From contig CANQFQ010000003.1 in assembly GCA_947599835.1 (NCBI GenBank), forward strand, positions 62,001 to 126,000: a stretch of 64,000 bases of DNA. The letters are read 5' to 3'. The position numbers and the translations under genes are program-made. The notes below the pieces were generated by a model that saw only the letters and a list, made by a program, of their open reading frames with translations, was not told the origin of the DNA and ran no database searches. The DNA is from an uncultured Bacilli bacterium (GTDB lineage Bacteria > Bacillota_I > Bacilli_A > RFN20 > CAG-631). This document shows positions 15,928-24,229 of this stretch, one piece after another (position 1 is the stretch's first letter; every line of letters begins with the position of its first letter).

Positions 15928-16875
15928 TTATTCTGCATTTCTAATTTTTATATATTCATTAATTTCTCGATTGTTACCCAAAATATAATGATCATATCCA
16001 ATATTGACCAGTTTTGGCTTTTCTTCAGAATAATCATGAATTGATTCATCATAAACATATAATTCTTTATTGTTTTCTAAAATAGGATCGGGGATTGGAA
16101 TCGCAGAAATCAAAGATTTCGTATAAGGATGCAATGGATATGCAAACAATTCTTCTGCCGGTGCGATTTCAACAATTCTACCTTGATAAATCACTCCAAT
16201 TCTATCGCTAATAAATTTAACTACCGATAAATCGTGAGCAATAAACAAATAAGTCAAGCCACGTTCAACTTGGAATTTTTTAAATAAATTTAAAACTTGA
16301 GCACGAATCGAAACATCTAATGCTGAGATAGGCTCGTCAGCAATAATCAATTCAGGTTCCATGACAATCGATCGAGCAATTCCAATTCTTTGTCTTTGTC
16401 CACCTGAAAATTCGTGTGGATATCGAGTTAAATGTTCAGGAAGCAATCCAACATCAGAAAGCGCTTGTTTAATTTTTCTGATGCGATCTTTTTCATTTTT
16501 ATATAAATGAAAGTTATACAACCCTTCACTAATGATATACTCTACGGTTGCTCTTTCATTTAACGAGGCGGCTGGATCTTGGAAAATCATTTGAATATTC
16601 CGGACAACTTCTCGATCTTCTTTATGTGATATTTTTCCAGAAATTCTTTTCCCCTTAAATAAGATTTCCCCATGACTTAATGGATTAATGCGCACAATGG
16701 CTCTACCAATCGTCGTTTTACCACTACCAGATTCTCCTACTAATGAAAACGTTTCACCTTTATAAATATCAAAGCTTACATCTTTAACGGCTTTGAAAAC
16801 ACGTTTACCTTTTTGAAATTCGATGTCTATATTGCGTATTGACAAGATGACTTCTTTGTTTGTTGTAGCGGACAT
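15928..16875 (-). CDS. oppF: Peptide ABC transporter ATPase OppF/AmiF
   Basis: This 315-residue ATPase carries Walker [11 protein letters not shown]-loop FQDP, signature FSGGQRQR, Walker B LIIADEP and switch His in FIAHDLSV, all intact. The C-terminal oligopeptide-transporter region includes [16 protein letters not shown] codons at 16881 and 16875 are both possible. AGGAGGA is only two bases from the first and eight from the second, so I chose 16875. The start lies inside the 3' end of oppD (71 bp overlap), so the two are translationally linked. It pairs with OppD as the two motor domains of the importer. The length is normal for AmiF, unlike its OppD partner. Confidence 0.93.
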
Positions 16876-19045
16876 AGGCATATTCCTCCTTATTCAATTG
16901 TGTTTGCGCCATTTCTAGCTTTTCATGTATGTTTTCAATTAGAGAAGGTTTGGATACTTTAGGAGCACGAGGATCTAACAACCATGTTTTTGCAAAATGG
17001 GTTTCACTCACATAAAAACATGGAGGTTCAAATTCTAAATCGACAGCCAAACAATAAGGATTTCTTTCAGCAAACGCATCTCCTTTAATTTTGTTATATA
17101 AAGAAGGTGGTGTTCCTTGAATTGAGAACAATTCTTGTCCTTTAACAGCGAGTTGAGGTAATGAAGATAATAATGCCCAAGTATATGGATGTTTAGGGTC
17201 ATAAAAGATTTCATTTACCAATCCGGCTTCTACAATTTGTCCGGCATATAAAACAGCTACACGATCAGCGACACTAGCCACAACACCTAAATCGTGTGTA
17301 ATATAAATGGTTGTGAATTTAAATTCCTTTTGCAAGTCTTTAATCAATTCTATAATTTGTGCTTGTATGGTAACATCCAAGGCTGTCGTTGGTTCATCAC
17401 AGATTAAAACTTTAGGTTGGCATGCTAGTGCAATCGCAATAACAATTCTTTGCCGCATGCCTCCTGAATATTGAAATGGATATTCTTTAAAACGTTTTTC
17501 GGCATCAGGAATACCCACTCTATTCATTAATTCAATTGCCCGTTTTTCTGCTTCTGCCATGCTACAATCTTGATGTTTAATAATCACTTCAGTAATTTGT
17601 TTACCAATCGTAACAATTGGGTTTAATGAGGTCATTGGATCTTGAAATACCATGGCAATTCTTGAACCACGAATTTTTTGCCATTCTGCATCCGTTTTAA
17701 TTTTCGTTAAATCAAGAATCGTATAGCCTTTTAAAATACTATTTTCACGCATCACTAATTGTTCATAAGTATCTTCTAAGACTTGGCCTATTTGTTCAAA
17801 TTGATTTTTTTCAAGTAAATTTTGAATCACTACTTGAATAAATTTTTCATTAGCTCCTTTTTGCTTTGCATAAGCTTGAATGTCATCATAATACTTTTTA
17901 TGATGGGCCACTTTTAAAAGTTGATAATTTTTTCTAGATAATTGTTTTTGTGTGTTTGAATCCAATTCAGTAAAATATTCATTTTCAACGCCTTTAAATA
18001 ATACTCTAAAAGTAATTAATTCATAAAGTTTTTCTAAAGTCTTATCATCGAATGTCAAATTACGTTTGAAAGCATTTTGAAAACGATCTTTTAAACTATG
18101 CAAATAAAAGAATTGTGTTAAAAAAGAATAACGACGAATGGATAATAAAATTTCTTTAGCAAGTTCTTTATTTTTTCTTAAAACGCTTTCTTCTACAACA
18201 TATTCATCCACAGCTTTTTGATAATCTCTTTGTAATTCTTTAATCGTTTTTTGATATTCTTGAACGACTTCTTTGTTTTTCTTAACACTTTGTAAGCGTT
18301 GCTTTTTAGCTATTTTTTCTTCTTTTTTTATTTGTTTGATTTGATTATCTAAATTTTTGATGAGTTGTGTATAATGTTTCTTTTCATTTTCGACAGAAGC
18401 GGTTTCCATTTTAACTAAAATGGCTTCTTTTTGTTCCACTAAGGAGGCAATTTCTTGCTCTATTTTTTCTTTGTCTGATTCTTTCAATAAACGCTTATTC
18501 AAATTGTTTATTTGTTTATCTAAGTTATTCACATCTTCTGCATATTGTTGCTTCTTACTTTTATTTACAGCAACAATTTTTTTGTTATAATATTCTACCC
18601 TTTGATAAAGTAGATCATCAATTTTTCTTTTATAATGTTCTAATTCTTCTGCAGTAAGTTGTTTGGATTGTTCAAATTGTTCTTTTAAAGCTTGTATCTT
18701 TAAATAAATTTCTTTTCCTCCAATGTATTTTGCATTTTTATCTAAAAAAGCAACTAACTTACGATATCGAATTAAATCAATTTTATTTAATTTAATTTTT
18801 AAAGAGGATAATTGATCATCTTGGAAAATAATATTTCCTTGGGTAATCACCCCGTTAGATTCTAACATTCCAGTAAATGTTTTTGTCAATACGGATTTCC
18901 CTGATCCAGATTCACCAACAATAGCAATCGATTCATCTTCATAAATATCAAAAGAAACATCACGAATGGCTGTCAATTGACGACCACGGACGTTAAATTT
19001 TACTTCTAGATTATTAATCGATAATAATACTTTTTCTTTGTTCAT
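16805..19045 (-). CDS. oppD: Peptide ABC transporter ATPase OppD/AmiE with large coiled-coil insertion
   Basis: At 746 residues it is about twice the usual OppD/AmiE length (about 355). Walker A GESGSGKS (44-51) and [13 protein letters not shown] (to 82) are followed by an insertion at about 84-447. Canonical sequence then resumes with [20 protein letters not shown] (455-474), signature YSGGMRQR (526-533), Walker B VLICDEP (546-552) and His584. The C-terminal region with QGTPPSLY and [12 protein letters not shown] closely resembles AmiE. The insertion is rich in Lys, Glu, Gln and Leu, with heptad patterns at about 112-300 and a further helical part to 440. All ATPase motifs are intact, so it is probably active. 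It starts after AGGAGGG and ends inside oppF. I cannot tell what the insert contacts. Confidence 0.92.
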
Positions 19046-19060: not shown

Positions 19061-20056
19061 CTACATATGTGTTTTAGGGTCAGAAGCATCGGCAAGATTT
19101 TGACCTATCAAATATAAACTTACCGTAATTAATGAAGATAAAATTACTGGAATCCAAAACATATGCGGATGATTGGTCATATACGTTTGATTATCATTAA
19201 TTAATTTCCCTAACGAGTTTTTCGAACCCAAACCAATTTGTAAGTAAGACAAGAAAACTTCCGTTGAAATATAGGATGGAATTTCACTTGCTGTAATCGT
19301 AACAATAACTGAAGTTAAGAAAGGTAAAATATTTTTAGAAACCATTCTAAGAATAGGTGTTCCTAAACATTTAGAGGCCAAATTATATTCTCTATCACGA
19401 ATAATAATTACTTGTGTTCGAATAAAATAGGCAATGCCTATCCAACCTGTGACGGTCATGGCGGCTACAAAGGCCCAGAATCCCGTACCGACAATAGAAA
19501 CAAAAACTGTAATAAACATTAAAGAAGGAATATTTGAAATAACATTATAAACTTCTTGCATAATCTTATCAAAAGTTTTGGAATATCCCCAAAGTGCACC
19601 GACAATAATTCCTAAAGTCAAATTAATCACTGCACACACAAAAGCTAAAGCAAGGGAGGATTGTGCCCCCGCCCATAACGCATCAAATAAAGGTTCTCCA
19701 TAACTACCCGTTCCAAAAACCCAACGTAATTTAAATCCAAACTTTGCAATGGCTTGTTTTGGAGTTAAAAAACTGACATCGATTAAACTACCATATTGAA
19801 TTTCATTATATTGTTGCCAAGATGCACGATCATAATGTGCAAATAGAGGATACACAAAAGATAAAAATAAGATAATAACAACTAATCCTAAAATAATATA
19901 GTTCACTGGGTTGCTAAAAAAGCTTCTAAATACCGATTTCCAATAAGAATATCTAGGCGCGGTAATTTTTTCAGAATCCACCGAATTATTATCTACCCGC
20001 GTAAATAACTCTAATGGAATATTATCCGATCTTTTTTGAATTTGATTGTTATCCAT
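19061..20056 (-). CDS. oppC: Peptide ABC transporter permease OppC/AmiD
   Basis: This 331-residue permease has an N-terminal cytoplasmic stretch of about 45 residues, a first helix near 52-72, an outside loop, then five helices. The EAA loop is visible as YNLASKCLGTPILRMVSKNILP, here split between residues 220 and 245. FGTGSYGEPLFDALWAGAQ is the typical segment before the transport core (usually G-T-D-x-x-G-R-D). Length and layout are normal for AmiD. The start ATG shares one base with the oppB stop (TAATG), and AGGAGG lies just upstream within oppB. It forms the membrane channel together with OppB. Confidence 0.9.
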   Translation of the reverse strand: MDNNQIQKRSDNIPLELFTRVDNNSVDSEKITAPRYSYWKSVFRSFFSNPVNYIILGLVVIILFLSFVYPLFAHYDRASWQQYNEIQYGSLIDVSFLTPKQAIAKFGFKLRWVFGTGSYGEPLFDALWAGAQSSLALAFVCAVINLTLGIIVGALWGYSKTFDKIMQEVYNVISNIPSLMFITVFVSIVGTGFWAFVAAMTVTGWIGIAYFIRTQVIIIRDREYNLASKCLGTPILRMVSKNILPFLTSVIVTITASEIPSYISTEVFLSYLQIGLGSKNSLGKLINDNQTYMTNHPHMFWIPVILSSLITVSLYLIGQNLADASDPKTHM

Positions 20057-21816
20057 TATTTTCGACCTCCTTTTTCAGCAAATGAAATACGAGGATCGAC
20101 GATAGCCATCAAAACATCTCCTAAAATTAATGCCGCCATAGACAAAATTGCATAGAAGAAAGTTAAACCAATAAGCATACTATTATCGGTCATACTAATG
20201 GCATCCGTAAATAATTTACCCACACCAGGAATACCAAATACACGTTCAGTAATTAATGCACCGGTTAAACTACCTAAAAATCCTCCAGGAATGTTATGAA
20301 TAATTGGAATTGCTGCATTTTTAAAGATGTGACGATTAAAAATTTCTAATTCGCTTAAACCTTTAGCACGAGCAAATTTCACATAGTCACTATTCATTTG
20401 GTCAATCATATAACGCCGTATCCATGACATCAATCCACCAATTGATGGCAATGCCAAAGACACAATAGGTAAAATATAAGCCGTCCAAGCAGGACTATCT
20501 CCTATGACTCTTAAATTAATTGGAAGCCCCATATTTTGCCCAAGTCTTCTAAACATATAAATATAAGCAAGTGAAGGAACAGCCATCATAAAGACGATAT
20601 AACAAATACCAATTTTATCGGCCAACTTGCCTTTATGTCTTGCCATTAAAATACCAATCGGTACTCCAAACAAATAAGCAATCACGGTGGAAATAATACC
20701 AATTAAAAAAGAATATCCAATCATTGATTTACCTTGTTTGGCTTCGTTACAACTTGTGTAATATCCATCATACAAAACGACATCACTAGGCTTTTCATCA
20801 GCTTTTGGATTTAATTCACAAGAATAAAAATCCATTCTATGTCCTGGCATCGTCGTTCCATTAGGATAAGTCACATCTTCTTCATATGGTTTTCCTTGAG
20901 GATCTGTCATAACTAGCACCGTATCTTTTGAATAGTGATAAGAGCGTCCTAAATTAAATTCTATCCAATTTTGATGAATAAAAGGAAATTTTCCATCAAA
21001 ATATAATAAATATTTATTTTTACAGCCTACACATCTTAAAGAAAGAGTTCCTGTAAATGGATCTTTTCCAAATGTTAAGGAAGGAGTAAGTTCTATTGGA
21101 TCTTGTCCATTAGCAATTCTTTCTTTATTGATTTTTTTGTAATAATTTTTTCCATCAAAATAAAATATATTTTTAAAGAAATCCCACAAACGAACAAATG
21201 TAGATTTATTTTTGTAAGCAAATAACTTACCTACACCACCAGCTTTTAACCTGAGTGTTTCAACAACATCGGGTGTTGGTCCATCCGATACATTGCTTGG
21301 AAGTGGGGATTCTATCGTTTCATCATTCGGTTGATATGCATCTTCATATTTATCTTCAGGCATAGGATTAGCACGTACAATCGTATAACCCGCCTTTTCA
21401 TATTTTGAAATAAATTCTTGAATTTCAGGAATGTCACTATCTACTAAGTAAGTCCGATCTGCTGCTAAGCAAGCACTATAACCTAATCTTCCAGAAGTTA
21501 TTTCACAATATTTTTGCTTACTTTCAAAGACTTGAGCGATGTCAGAACATCGATTAAATTCTTCTGAGTTACGTTCATATTTAATTGCACAAAAATTTAC
21601 ATAATCGTAAGTTTCTAAATAACCATATTCTTCCCATATTTGATATTTTAAACGAGTTCTATCGTTATTTTGAATTGTTGGATGTTCTTCATGACAAATT
21701 TTACCTGCTAAAACTTCTCGATCCATCAAGGAATAAATTAGAACAATCGTAAAAATCATAATCGCAATTAAAGATAATATTGAACGCCCAATACGTTTTA
21801 ATATATACTTTCCCAT
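20056..21816 (-). CDS. oppB: Peptide ABC transporter permease OppB/AmiC with long cysteine-rich outer loop
   Basis: This 586-residue protein has TM1 at about residues 10-31, then an outside loop of about 330 residues, then the five-helix transport core from about 366. The EAA loop reads ARAKGLSELEIFNRHIFKNA, and VDPRISFAEKGG closes the protein. The pneumococcal AmiC also has a long loop, and the stretch KYLLYFDGKFPFIHQNWIEF matches it. Here the loop is longer and contains nine cysteines (in KIC, NFC, RCS, KYC, SAC, RCVGC, YSC and TSC contexts), unusual for an anaerobe's exposed domain. A hydrophobic patch RLWDFFKNIFYF may lie on the membrane surface. A terminator-like hairpin separates it from oppA. 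Confidence 0.9.
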   Translation of the reverse strand: MGKYILKRIGRSILSLIAIMIFTIVLIYSLMDREVLAGKICHEEHPTIQNNDRTRLKYQIWEEYGYLETYDYVNFCAIKYERNSEEFNRCSDIAQVFESKQKYCEITSGRLGYSACLAADRTYLVDSDIPEIQEFISKYEKAGYTIVRANPMPEDKYEDAYQPNDETIESPLPSNVSDGPTPDVVETLRLKAGGVGKLFAYKNKSTFVRLWDFFKNIFYFDGKNYYKKINKERIANGQDPIELTPSLTFGKDPFTGTLSLRCVGCKNKYLLYFDGKFPFIHQNWIEFNLGRSYHYSKDTVLVMTDPQGKPYEEDVTYPNGTTMPGHRMDFYSCELNPKADEKPSDVVLYDGYYTSCNEAKQGKSMIGYSFLIGIISTVIAYLFGVPIGILMARHKGKLADKIGICYIVFMMAVPSLAYIYMFRRLGQNMGLPINLRVIGDSPAWTAYILPIVSLALPSIGGLMSWIRRYMIDQMNSDYVKFARAKGLSELEIFNRHIFKNAAIPIIHNIPGGFLGSLTGALITERVFGIPGVGKLFTDAISMTDNSMLIGLTFFYAILSMAALILGDVLMAIVDPRISFAEKGGRK

Positions 21817-21844
21817 TTTCTATATTTCTCCTTCCTTTATAAGA

Positions 21845-21882
21845 GAAAAAAGAGGGCAAGGAAGGTCTATTCCTTAACCCTC
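21845..21882 (-). terminator. Terminator/attenuator between oppA and oppB
   Basis: On the minus strand GAGGG-TT-AAGGAA pairs with TTCCTT-G-CCCTC (6-nt loop), followed directly by TTTTTT. It lies between the oppA stop and the oppB ribosome site. Partial read-through would give more binding protein than permease, as is common for importers. Confidence 0.85.
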
Positions 21883-21909
21883 TACAACGATATCAATTTA
21901 ATTTTTAGA

Positions 21910-24126
21910 TTACCATAGACCGAGTGTTTTGGTTAAATAACCATTTCCACCTGGAACTAAAGTTTCTAAGAATGTAGCTGGATCTGCATAATCAGGAATC
22001 CATCCACTGCCGCAATAGAAATCATAATTTGCAGCTTCGCCTGAGGCAACCATATAGGTTGATGCAAGATATTCACTTTCAGTACCTGCTTCAACTGCAT
22101 TAATTTGAATGCCTTTGGTACCTAATGCTCTTTTAATTGAAGCTTGTAATGATGTTACTTGTTTATCATTACCCATGAGATATACGACATCAATTTGAAC
22201 AGGGAAAGCTTTTTCCATTGCTTCTCTACCGCCAAATTCGTCAGCCCATTCGTCTAATAATTCTTCTTTAGCTAAATTAAAGTAATATTCAGCAAGTTGT
22301 TCTTGATACCAACCATCCACACCATCAGAAAGATCGATTGCTTCAATTAATTGTTTGTCTGTTGGTTGGTTATTTTCATCTTTTTCTTTCCAATCCGTAT
22401 GTTGTTGATTATAAACAGCTAATCTAGCATTTAATTTTTCTTGAACAATTTCACCATAAGAAGTGTGTGCAGTGTATCCATCATAATCATTAGGAAGTGT
22501 TACAAATTCAGGATCGGTAAACATATTTCTTAAACTTGCAGTTCTTAATTCTCTACCTGCCGTAGTTTCATTATAATTTGCTTTATTGATTGCATAATAG
22601 AATGCTTTTCTAAAATTCTTATTGAGTAAAGCAACTCTTGTTAAATTCTTAGCAATGCCATCTTCAGCTTTTGGAGATTTAACACTTACTCTTCTTCCTG
22701 AATCAAGACTATAGGTTTTACGATTAAAATTGAAGGCTCCAATAAATGTACCTGCTGCAGTATCTTGACGATAAATGCAATTTTCATAGCCTTTATTTAC
22801 TGCTTGTGTATACGTTTCTTCGGTTAAAGAAGCGCCTGCATATTCACCTTCAATAACTTGGTCTAAATAAGTGGATGCATCTAAATCTGCAGTATAAATT
22901 AATTCAACAGAATTAAGTGTAATTGAACTAGCATCCCAATAAGAATTATTTTTGAGATAAGTAATACCACTCGTTGCGGTAATTTCAGTTAAACGATAAG
23001 CGCCATTATATAAAATGCTTGTTGGATCTAAACTACCATAAGTGTAATTTTTTCCACCTTTTGCGTTTCTAAATTCATCTATTCCAAAAGCCCCACCTTT
23101 ACTTAAAAAGAAGGAACGATTCAATGGTGCAAAAACTGAAAATGTAAATAAGGAATCTGCATAAGGAAGTTCTCTATTAAATGAAACTTCAAGGGTATAA
23201 TTATCAATGGCTTTGATACCTACTTGAGAAAAATCGGTAATTTTCTTGTCTGAATAATCTTGTGCGCCCACTAGAATACTATTCATAATATCTTCTGAAC
23301 CGCCTTTAGCATCTAGTAAGTGTTGCATACCAGCTACAAAGTCATCAGCCACAACTTCTCCTTGATCTTGACCAGCACTATTGACCCATCTCACATTTTG
23401 TCTTAAATGAATGGTGTAAACTTTTCCTGTTGCATCCACTTCTTTACTCAAAGCAAGTGCAGGAACAATGTCACCAAAACGATCGTGTTCAAATAAATTA
23501 TCAACCAAGTTGGTCGTAACATCAGAATCTTGAGCATGCGAAGAAGCAAGATAATCTAATGTTGTAGGCATAGAAGAAAATAATGTTGTGTAATCTGTAT
23601 AGAATGTGGTATAACCCCATTCATCCAATTTTTTCTTTTCGTTTGCTTCAAATTTTTCTTTTGTATTTTCTGCATTCCAACCTGTTTCAACGGCTGTTTT
23701 CCAGTCTTCTTTTAATTCATTCCGTTGTGCCGTTGGTAAGAGTTTGTTATCCTCTGTTTTAATGATTTTATAGCCTTTATATTTGCTAGAATCTGAACCA
23801 TATCTTGCATAAGGTCCTGTGTATGGAAGAACTCTTGATAAGCCCCATCTTCCTCCTTCGGTGTTAAATGGTAAGATAACCGCTTGATCCAATAAATATG
23901 CTTCAGCATCTGCAAATTTGACATATCTTTCAGCATTATCCATTGATTGGTGAGCAGTATTAAACAAAGAATTGTAGTCAGGTAAAATTGTTTTGTAAAC
24001 TTCTGTATCTGTAAATTTCAAATCCTCCATTTTACTTTTATGAGTTCCTTTGTCGCCACCACAACCAGTCAAACAAACTGCTAAAGCTGCAAAAGCTGAC
24101 AAAACTAAAAGTTTATTTTTTGCCAT
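21910..24126 (-). CDS. oppA: Peptide-binding lipoprotein OppA/AmiA, apparently circularly permuted
   Basis: This 738-residue lipoprotein starts at the ATG at 24126 (AAGGAGG eight bases ahead) and has lipobox LTGC (Cys22). Residues about 45-170 resemble the C-terminal end of AmiA/OppA proteins: YNSLFNTA, ERYVKFADAEAYLLDQAVIL, GLSRVLPYTGPYARYG, KYKGYKIIKTEDN and a charged helix. From about 180 the canonical N-terminal part begins (TTLDYLASSHAQDSDVTTNL, then VYTIHLRQNVRW) and runs in normal order to GWIPDYADPATFLETLVP. The protein stops at TKTLGLW, where relatives would continue into exactly the segment found at the N-terminus. No leftover C-terminal sequence lies in the 90 bp before oppB. Composition is uniform and the frame is open, so it looks functional. 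Confidence 0.9.
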   Translation of the reverse strand: MAKNKLLVLSAFAALAVCLTGCGGDKGTHKSKMEDLKFTDTEVYKTILPDYNSLFNTAHQSMDNAERYVKFADAEAYLLDQAVILPFNTEGGRWGLSRVLPYTGPYARYGSDSSKYKGYKIIKTEDNKLLPTAQRNELKEDWKTAVETGWNAENTKEKFEANEKKKLDEWGYTTFYTDYTTLFSSMPTTLDYLASSHAQDSDVTTNLVDNLFEHDRFGDIVPALALSKEVDATGKVYTIHLRQNVRWVNSAGQDQGEVVADDFVAGMQHLLDAKGGSEDIMNSILVGAQDYSDKKITDFSQVGIKAIDNYTLEVSFNRELPYADSLFTFSVFAPLNRSFFLSKGGAFGIDEFRNAKGGKNYTYGSLDPTSILYNGAYRLTEITATSGITYLKNNSYWDASSITLNSVELIYTADLDASTYLDQVIEGEYAGASLTEETYTQAVNKGYENCIYRQDTAAGTFIGAFNFNRKTYSLDSGRRVSVKSPKAEDGIAKNLTRVALLNKNFRKAFYYAINKANYNETTAGRELRTASLRNMFTDPEFVTLPNDYDGYTAHTSYGEIVQEKLNARLAVYNQQHTDWKEKDENNQPTDKQLIEAIDLSDGVDGWYQEQLAEYYFNLAKEELLDEWADEFGGREAMEKAFPVQIDVVYLMGNDKQVTSLQASIKRALGTKGIQINAVEAGTESEYLASTYMVASGEAANYDFYCGSGWIPDYADPATFLETLVPGGNGYLTKTLGLW

Positions 24127-24200
24127 AAATTTAGCCTCCTTAAAATTAAATTTATTCACGTTAATTTCAAAGGTTCATCCTCGCGTGAATAGTTTTAAAC

Positions 24201-24229
24201 ATTATATATTTTTTTGACATGATAGTCAA
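24201..24229 (-). promoter_or_regulatory. Sigma-A promoter of the opp operon
   Basis: On the minus strand TTGACT (24229-24224) and TATAAT (24206-24201), 17 bp apart. The leader carries a 7-bp inverted repeat, ATTCACG (24190-24184) with CGTGAAT (24160-24154), upstream of the oppA ribosome site. Confidence 0.85.

Follow-up and report, generated by a model that had tools for sequence, protein, structure and literature searches.

The 64,000-nt window analyzed here (the whole stretch of DNA, from which all unprefixed coordinates are counted) encodes what is very probably a circularly permuted substrate-binding lipoprotein of an AmiACDEF/OppABCDF-type oligopeptide importer. The chain order that is usual in the SBP_bac_5 family, here called canonical although it lies outside the family's formal definition, has its C-terminal part last (segments N-C-F). 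In the window protein this order is rotated to F-N-C, so that the stretch closing a canonical chain (the last part of Domain III, the return into Domain I, and helix α19) comes first, right behind the signal peptide. At the level of sequence comparison and predicted structure, circular permutation of this ABC-importer binding protein is confirmed, and the permuted arrangement is common in gut bacteria.

Rotated order of the chain

Comparison of the window protein with PDB sequences by phmmer broke it into three pieces: residues 177–547 matched AliB 7–352 (5.5e-53), residues 595–736 AliB 370–500 (2.1e-8), and residues 48–147 AliB 515–611 (2.8e-9), the last piece also matching AmiA 520–620 and AliD 514–610. 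AmiA, AliC and AliD gave the same rotated three-piece match as AliB. A first-pass annotation made from the letters had placed C-terminal AmiA/OppA motifs at residues ~45–170 after the lipobox and the start of the canonical N-terminal segment at about 180, and both were located where it had put them. Its further proposal, that joining the present C-terminus to the front segment restores the normal order, was borne out by a rotation scan, in which a canonical protein was rotated stepwise and its local alignment score against the window protein was recorded. For L036 (genome G009), the closest canonical relative, the score rose from 902 without rotation to 1088 when the chain was cut at residues 562–572; for two more distant canonical proteins it rose from 682 to 823 and from 663 to 856, with the cut at the equivalent place, while control pairs (canonical–canonical and permuted–permuted) scored best without rotation. 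A doubled L036 sequence produced a single alignment spanning query residues 34–728, versus scores of at most 73 for its shuffled counterparts. A single continuous diagonal, as for an unpermuted chain, did not appear in the comparison with canonical proteins, which was rotated and in pieces, and self-comparison of the window protein found no internal repeat. Finally, a profile built exclusively from canonical sequences matched 98 of 98 permuted proteins in rotated order, their chains breaking off at model position 552–553 and resuming at position 559 (median).

The main body of the protein comprises the N-terminal ~500 residues of a canonical chain (Domain I, Domain II, and most of Domain III), and its last residues read TKTLGLW (Table 1). 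Between this body and the front segment lies a new linker that connects the old C-terminus, α19, with the old N-terminus; a related linker with the consensus YDPAxYLxxKGYTL is common to most permuted homologues. The gene starts at an ATG at 24126 and stops at 21910–21912 on the minus strand. A longer version starting at the GTG at 24159 is unlikely, since a ribosome site, AAGGAGG at 24135–24141, precedes the ATG by 8 nt. The lipobox cysteine is invariant in 10 aligned homologues, and a same-genus genome (G001) carries a 75%-identical protein with identical segment order.

Table 1. Features of the permuted oppA gene and its operon (window coordinates).
Feature	Position	Strand	Details
OppF ATPase	15928..16881	(-)	317 aa
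OppD ATPase	16805..19045	(-)	746 aa, long charged insert
OppC permease	19061..20056	(-)	331 aa
OppB/AmiC-type permease	20056..21816	(-)	586 aa, large extracellular insert
Permuted oppA/amiA-type gene	21910..24126	(-)	738 aa plus stop, uninterrupted frame
Segments N and C	21913..23595	(-)	residues 178–738; phmmer, Pfam SBP_bac_5, Foldseek
Clamp for peptide N-terminus	21991..22002	(-)	W709-I710-P711-D712; phmmer alignment with AliD W498/D501 and AliB W500/D503
New linker	23596..23682	(-)	residues 149–177; extra helix 156–169 in model
Segment F	23683..24009	(-)	residues 40–148; phmmer, AlphaFold model elements
Signal peptide and lipobox	24061..24126	(-)	residues 1–22, LTGC; putative lipidated Cys22, from sequence
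Promoter-like TTGACT-17 nt-TATAAT upstream of oppA	24201..24229	(-)	candidate, read by eye

Predicted fold and side of attachment

An AlphaFold model calculated from an alignment of 91 permuted sequences had a mean pLDDT of 92.6 and a pTM of 0.91, with values of about 95 in segment F. The window protein is thereby predicted to form a complete Cluster C fold of the three-domain, two-lobed AmiA/AliD type, and the model does not show the Cluster B sugar-binding fold. Its best PDB structural matches in Foldseek were the peptide-binding Cluster C proteins AliB, AmiA, AliD, and AliC. Foldseek aligns sequentially, so that the TM(target) of 0.75 over 566 columns against AliB refers to the sequential part only; the model of canonical L036 reached 0.92 over 654 columns against AliD. 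The order of secondary-structure elements is a rotation of that in L036: the front elements of the window model (H40-47, H51-60, H64-80, E85-89, E94-97, H132-148) correspond to the last ones of L036 (H578-588, H591-600, H605-622, E625-632, E635-638, H669-690), and the present C-terminus (H717-723, H730-734) reaches just to the start of the canonical loop. Segment F is accordingly predicted to pack in the fold as its counterpart does in canonical proteins, on the grounds of the confidence values, the rotated secondary structure, and the sequence homology.

Lobe 1 of AliD consists of Domain I (residues 29–63, 191–296, and 583–617) and Domain II (64–190), Lobe 2 of Domain III (297–582), and helix α19 spans residues 622–652 (PMC11192437). 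From the alignment of window residues 709 and 712 with AliD W498 and D501, the break falls at about AliD 524–539, within Domain III, and the new termini thus lie in Lobe 2, the old ones in Lobe 1. The new ends are located in a flexible Domain III loop, 26 residues past the clamp aspartate, and α19 is now internal, followed by the one-helix linker. In the L036 model this loop (block 571–580) is of reduced confidence, with a mean pLDDT of 72; canonical L036 and L039 have a loop of ~15 residues where permuted proteins start and stop. The clamp tryptophan and aspartate, which hold the amino end of the peptide (PMC11192437), are invariant in the 91 permuted proteins. The first-pass annotation had suspected that new termini would shift the anchor to the other end of the binding cleft, and the mapping supports a move of the lipid anchor from Lobe 1 to Lobe 2. 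Given the position of the lipobox, the membrane tether of the receptor would attach to Lobe 2 rather than Lobe 1, which may affect how it docks on the permease.

The window protein most likely works as a normal receptor for oligopeptides, its fold and mode of binding unchanged; it would capture peptides by Venus-fly-trap closure and deliver them to OppBC as in AmiA.

Distribution, origins, and rival readings

When the fetched loci were classified by how profiles of the three segments (F, N, and C) succeed one another, 98 distinct proteins proved to be permuted (F-N-C) and 45 to be canonical (N-C-F). Permuted members were found in Bacilli, Clostridia, and Spirochaetota: in several families of the window's order, in other Bacilli, and, according to the depositors' labels, in Lachnospiraceae, Roseburia, Oscillospiraceae, Erysipelotrichaceae, Sphaerochaeta, and Treponemataceae. 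Many relatives at 30–40% identity to the window protein keep the permuted order, and on contigs of sufficient extent permuted oppA is usually followed by oppB, oppC, oppD, and oppF. A 200-genome sample of the family of the Roseburia-labelled bin (cut-off E ≤ 1e-60, arrangement read from match spans) contained about nine genomes with permuted relatives and four with canonical-looking ones. A plasmid search returned distant matches only, none covering 80% of the query. Two permuted oppA genes (L138, L132) are apparently split by frameshifts in their assemblies, giving either an N-C frame lacking F or an F-N frame followed by N-C. In clostridial and spirochaetal bins, some permuted OppA proteins (L092, L093, L098, L099, L100, L105, L109, L115, L135, L156; L090, L110, L112) have a signal peptide without lipobox cysteine, for example VGASAEAV, and may not be lipid-anchored.

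In trees built from rotated sequences, most permuted proteins form one clade, whose nearest relatives are the canonical L036 and L039 (G016). A second permuted group (L040, L076, L077; genomes G043, G177, G068) lies inside a distant, otherwise canonical clade; its linker differs from that of the main clade, its break position is identical. A single clade of all permuted proteins was rejected (log-likelihood difference 437, p-AU 3e-21), and the tree test was compatible with the second group being one clade (p-AU 0.59). We take the canonical order as ancestral because OppA-fold proteins with solved structures have it; together with the rejection of a single origin, this implies at least two forward permutations at one and the same loop. 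The placement of the window pair (G000, G001) in the main clade has a modest support value of 74, and its linker resembles that of the main clade in the GYT motif; the pair may also have had a separate origin.

One lineage, G164, apparently underwent permutation a second time, back to a near-canonical order. Its protein L074 (G164:C9:10490-12571, minus strand) carries FITSKERAEMLEQWEAAFKDSSKSYNPAKYLTDKGYTL right after the lipobox, corresponding to α19 plus the linker that was otherwise seen here in permuted proteins only, and the chain ends before α19. The stretch GTYGREADVDVYERNLG at its C-F junction resembles the start of permuted proteins. L074 nests within the permuted clade; its exclusion lowered the likelihood by 51 with a p-AU of 0.09, which is unrejected at the 5% level. 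L074 sits in an intact operon like those of the main clade. It comes from a single bin, 74% complete, and no other genome of the genus yielded it.

As to the route, the last ~110 residues of an ancestral canonical oppA would have been placed behind the signal peptide, with the new helical linker joining the old C-terminus to the old N-terminus. A plausible if less certain way to this end is that oppA was duplicated in tandem or fused and then lost its outer parts, and repeated gain as well as the second permutation would suit it. Remnants of a second copy were seen neither downstream of the window gene nor up- or downstream of the G164 gene, and the fetched loci contained no double-length N-C-F-N-C-F reading frame.

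Two readings would do away with the permutation altogether. Residues 45–170 might be an added N-terminal domain on a normal or C-terminally truncated OppA, and the Pfam result invites this: PF00496 (SBP_bac_5) matches residues 220–728 (108.6 bits versus a gathering cut-off of 32.4) and taken alone leaves the front unassigned. The front, however, shows homology with the canonical C-terminus, the chain now ends precisely where the canonical C-terminal part would start, and residues 45–170 supply just those C-terminal secondary-structure elements that are missing from the present end, so that the added-domain reading is refuted by the sequence and we attach next to no probability to it. An assembly artefact or a mis-join of two genes in a metagenome bin could be suspected since most relatives come from genomes assembled from metagenomes. 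Speaking against it are 98 distinct reading frames from many assemblies, on contigs of up to about 295 kb, every one of them (98/98) broken at the one shared loop of Domain III (Lobe 2) and most accompanied by an intact oppBCDF operon; for the family, the artefact is refuted by this concordance, and for the window protein it is scarcely conceivable.

Why a rotated receptor should have been kept is a different matter. We regard the chances as evenly balanced that the permutation is neutral, a permissive surface loop having allowed duplication-truncation products to survive and the anchor to move without benefit. The reduced model confidence of the break loop, the permuted proteins devoid of a lipobox, and the apparent return of the G164 lineage to near-canonical order are in line with such neutrality. 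Two independent origins at one position and long maintenance across several classes rather suggest a constraint or an advantage, although both could also result from nothing more than a permissive loop. Adaptive relocation of the anchor, with a tether on Lobe 2 (the OppC side) instead of Lobe 1 (the OppB side) improving delivery or avoiding strain, is possible, if on the doubtful side. Consistent with it are the mapping of the break to Lobe 2, the lipobox present in most permuted proteins, and the precedent of TpMglB-2 among tethered proteins (PMC4990184). The tether ahead of the fold has a median of 42 residues in permuted versus 18.5 in canonical proteins, values that depend on the profile boundaries, and a need of permuted proteins for longer lipid tethers is weakly supported; the tether of the window protein itself is short (~18 residues). 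Since some distant permuted members lack a lipobox, anchoring cannot explain every case. Rather unlikely, to our mind, is the more far-reaching notion that permutation at the Domain III loop is a recurrent, reversible switch which moves the anchor between lobes, changes docking and handover at the permease, and has been repeatedly selected in gut and rumen bacteria.

Precedents and operon context

In nature, whole receptors are seldom circularly permuted; to our knowledge, a case that can be mapped onto a tree, recurred at one position and then underwent another permutation is rarer still. The nearest precedent, and the one described natural case that we found among ABC binding proteins, is TpMglB-2 (Tp0684) of Treponema pallidum, a tethered ABC-importer binding protein that is permuted and has kept ligand binding, with homologues in treponemes and Gram-positive bacteria and a proposed class of its own, ‘Type Ic/Cluster Bc’ (PMC4990184). 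The idea that permutation relates to anchoring was put forward for TpMglB-2 by the authors of its structure (PMC4990184). The two proteins are alike in being permuted binding proteins of ABC importers from a similar range of organisms. They are unrelated at the family level, TpMglB-2 having a Cluster B sugar-binding fold, and its break differs from that of the window protein and adds a fourth hinge crossing. The moved segment of TpMglB-2 also lacks clear sequence homology, with a reported identity of 13% (PMC4990184). In the literature covered, which included few subscription journals, no permuted OppA/SBP_bac_5 (Cluster C) protein was found; permutation in this class of Cluster C proteins seems previously undescribed.

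The pneumococcal proteins AmiA, AliA, AliB, AliC, and AliD (SBP_bac_5, Cluster C; PMC11192437) are homologous to the window protein over essentially its whole length, including α19 and the clamp tryptophan and aspartate. Relative to them, the window protein is rotated, has its termini in Domain III, contains a helical linker, and carries the anchor on Lobe 2. Its closest canonical relatives, L036 and L039 from the same taxonomic order, share about 40% identity in the main segment and keep the usual N-C-F order, L039 being truncated at the end of its contig; L036 heads an operon of the window's type. Canonical, permuted, and re-permuted proteins provide a natural experiment on whether the side of anchoring matters for ABC import. 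There is also a consequence for annotation, since with Pfam reporting the middle and end only, domain surveys will treat the front as an unrelated extension.

Directly downstream of the window's oppA lie the genes for two permeases and two ATPases (oppBCDF) of an Opp/Ami-type operon; the pneumococcal Ami operon is of the same type and likewise has an AmiC-like permease with an extracellular insert. The insert of the window OppB is cysteine-rich (e.g., CVGCKNK), and disulphides or metal binding are conceivable. The charged insert of OppD sits between the Walker A region and the Q-loop, and the protein resembles mycoplasma-type OppD (NF043079). OppD usually has ~580–630 aa in main-clade permuted operons and 353 aa in the canonical L036 operon. 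A strict link between permutation and a long OppD insert was rejected: OppD proteins of main-clade operons mostly measure ~580–750 aa, and in the second group L208 and L040 have 367–373 aa, L207 has 629 aa. By eye, a hairpin followed by a T run (GAGGGTTAAGGAA..TTCCTTGCCCTCTTTTTT) can be recognized between oppA and oppB (21817–21909, minus strand); possibly, it is a partial terminator that raises expression of oppA over that of the remaining genes. At L206, a hairpin similar to that of the window is also found 3’ of oppA.
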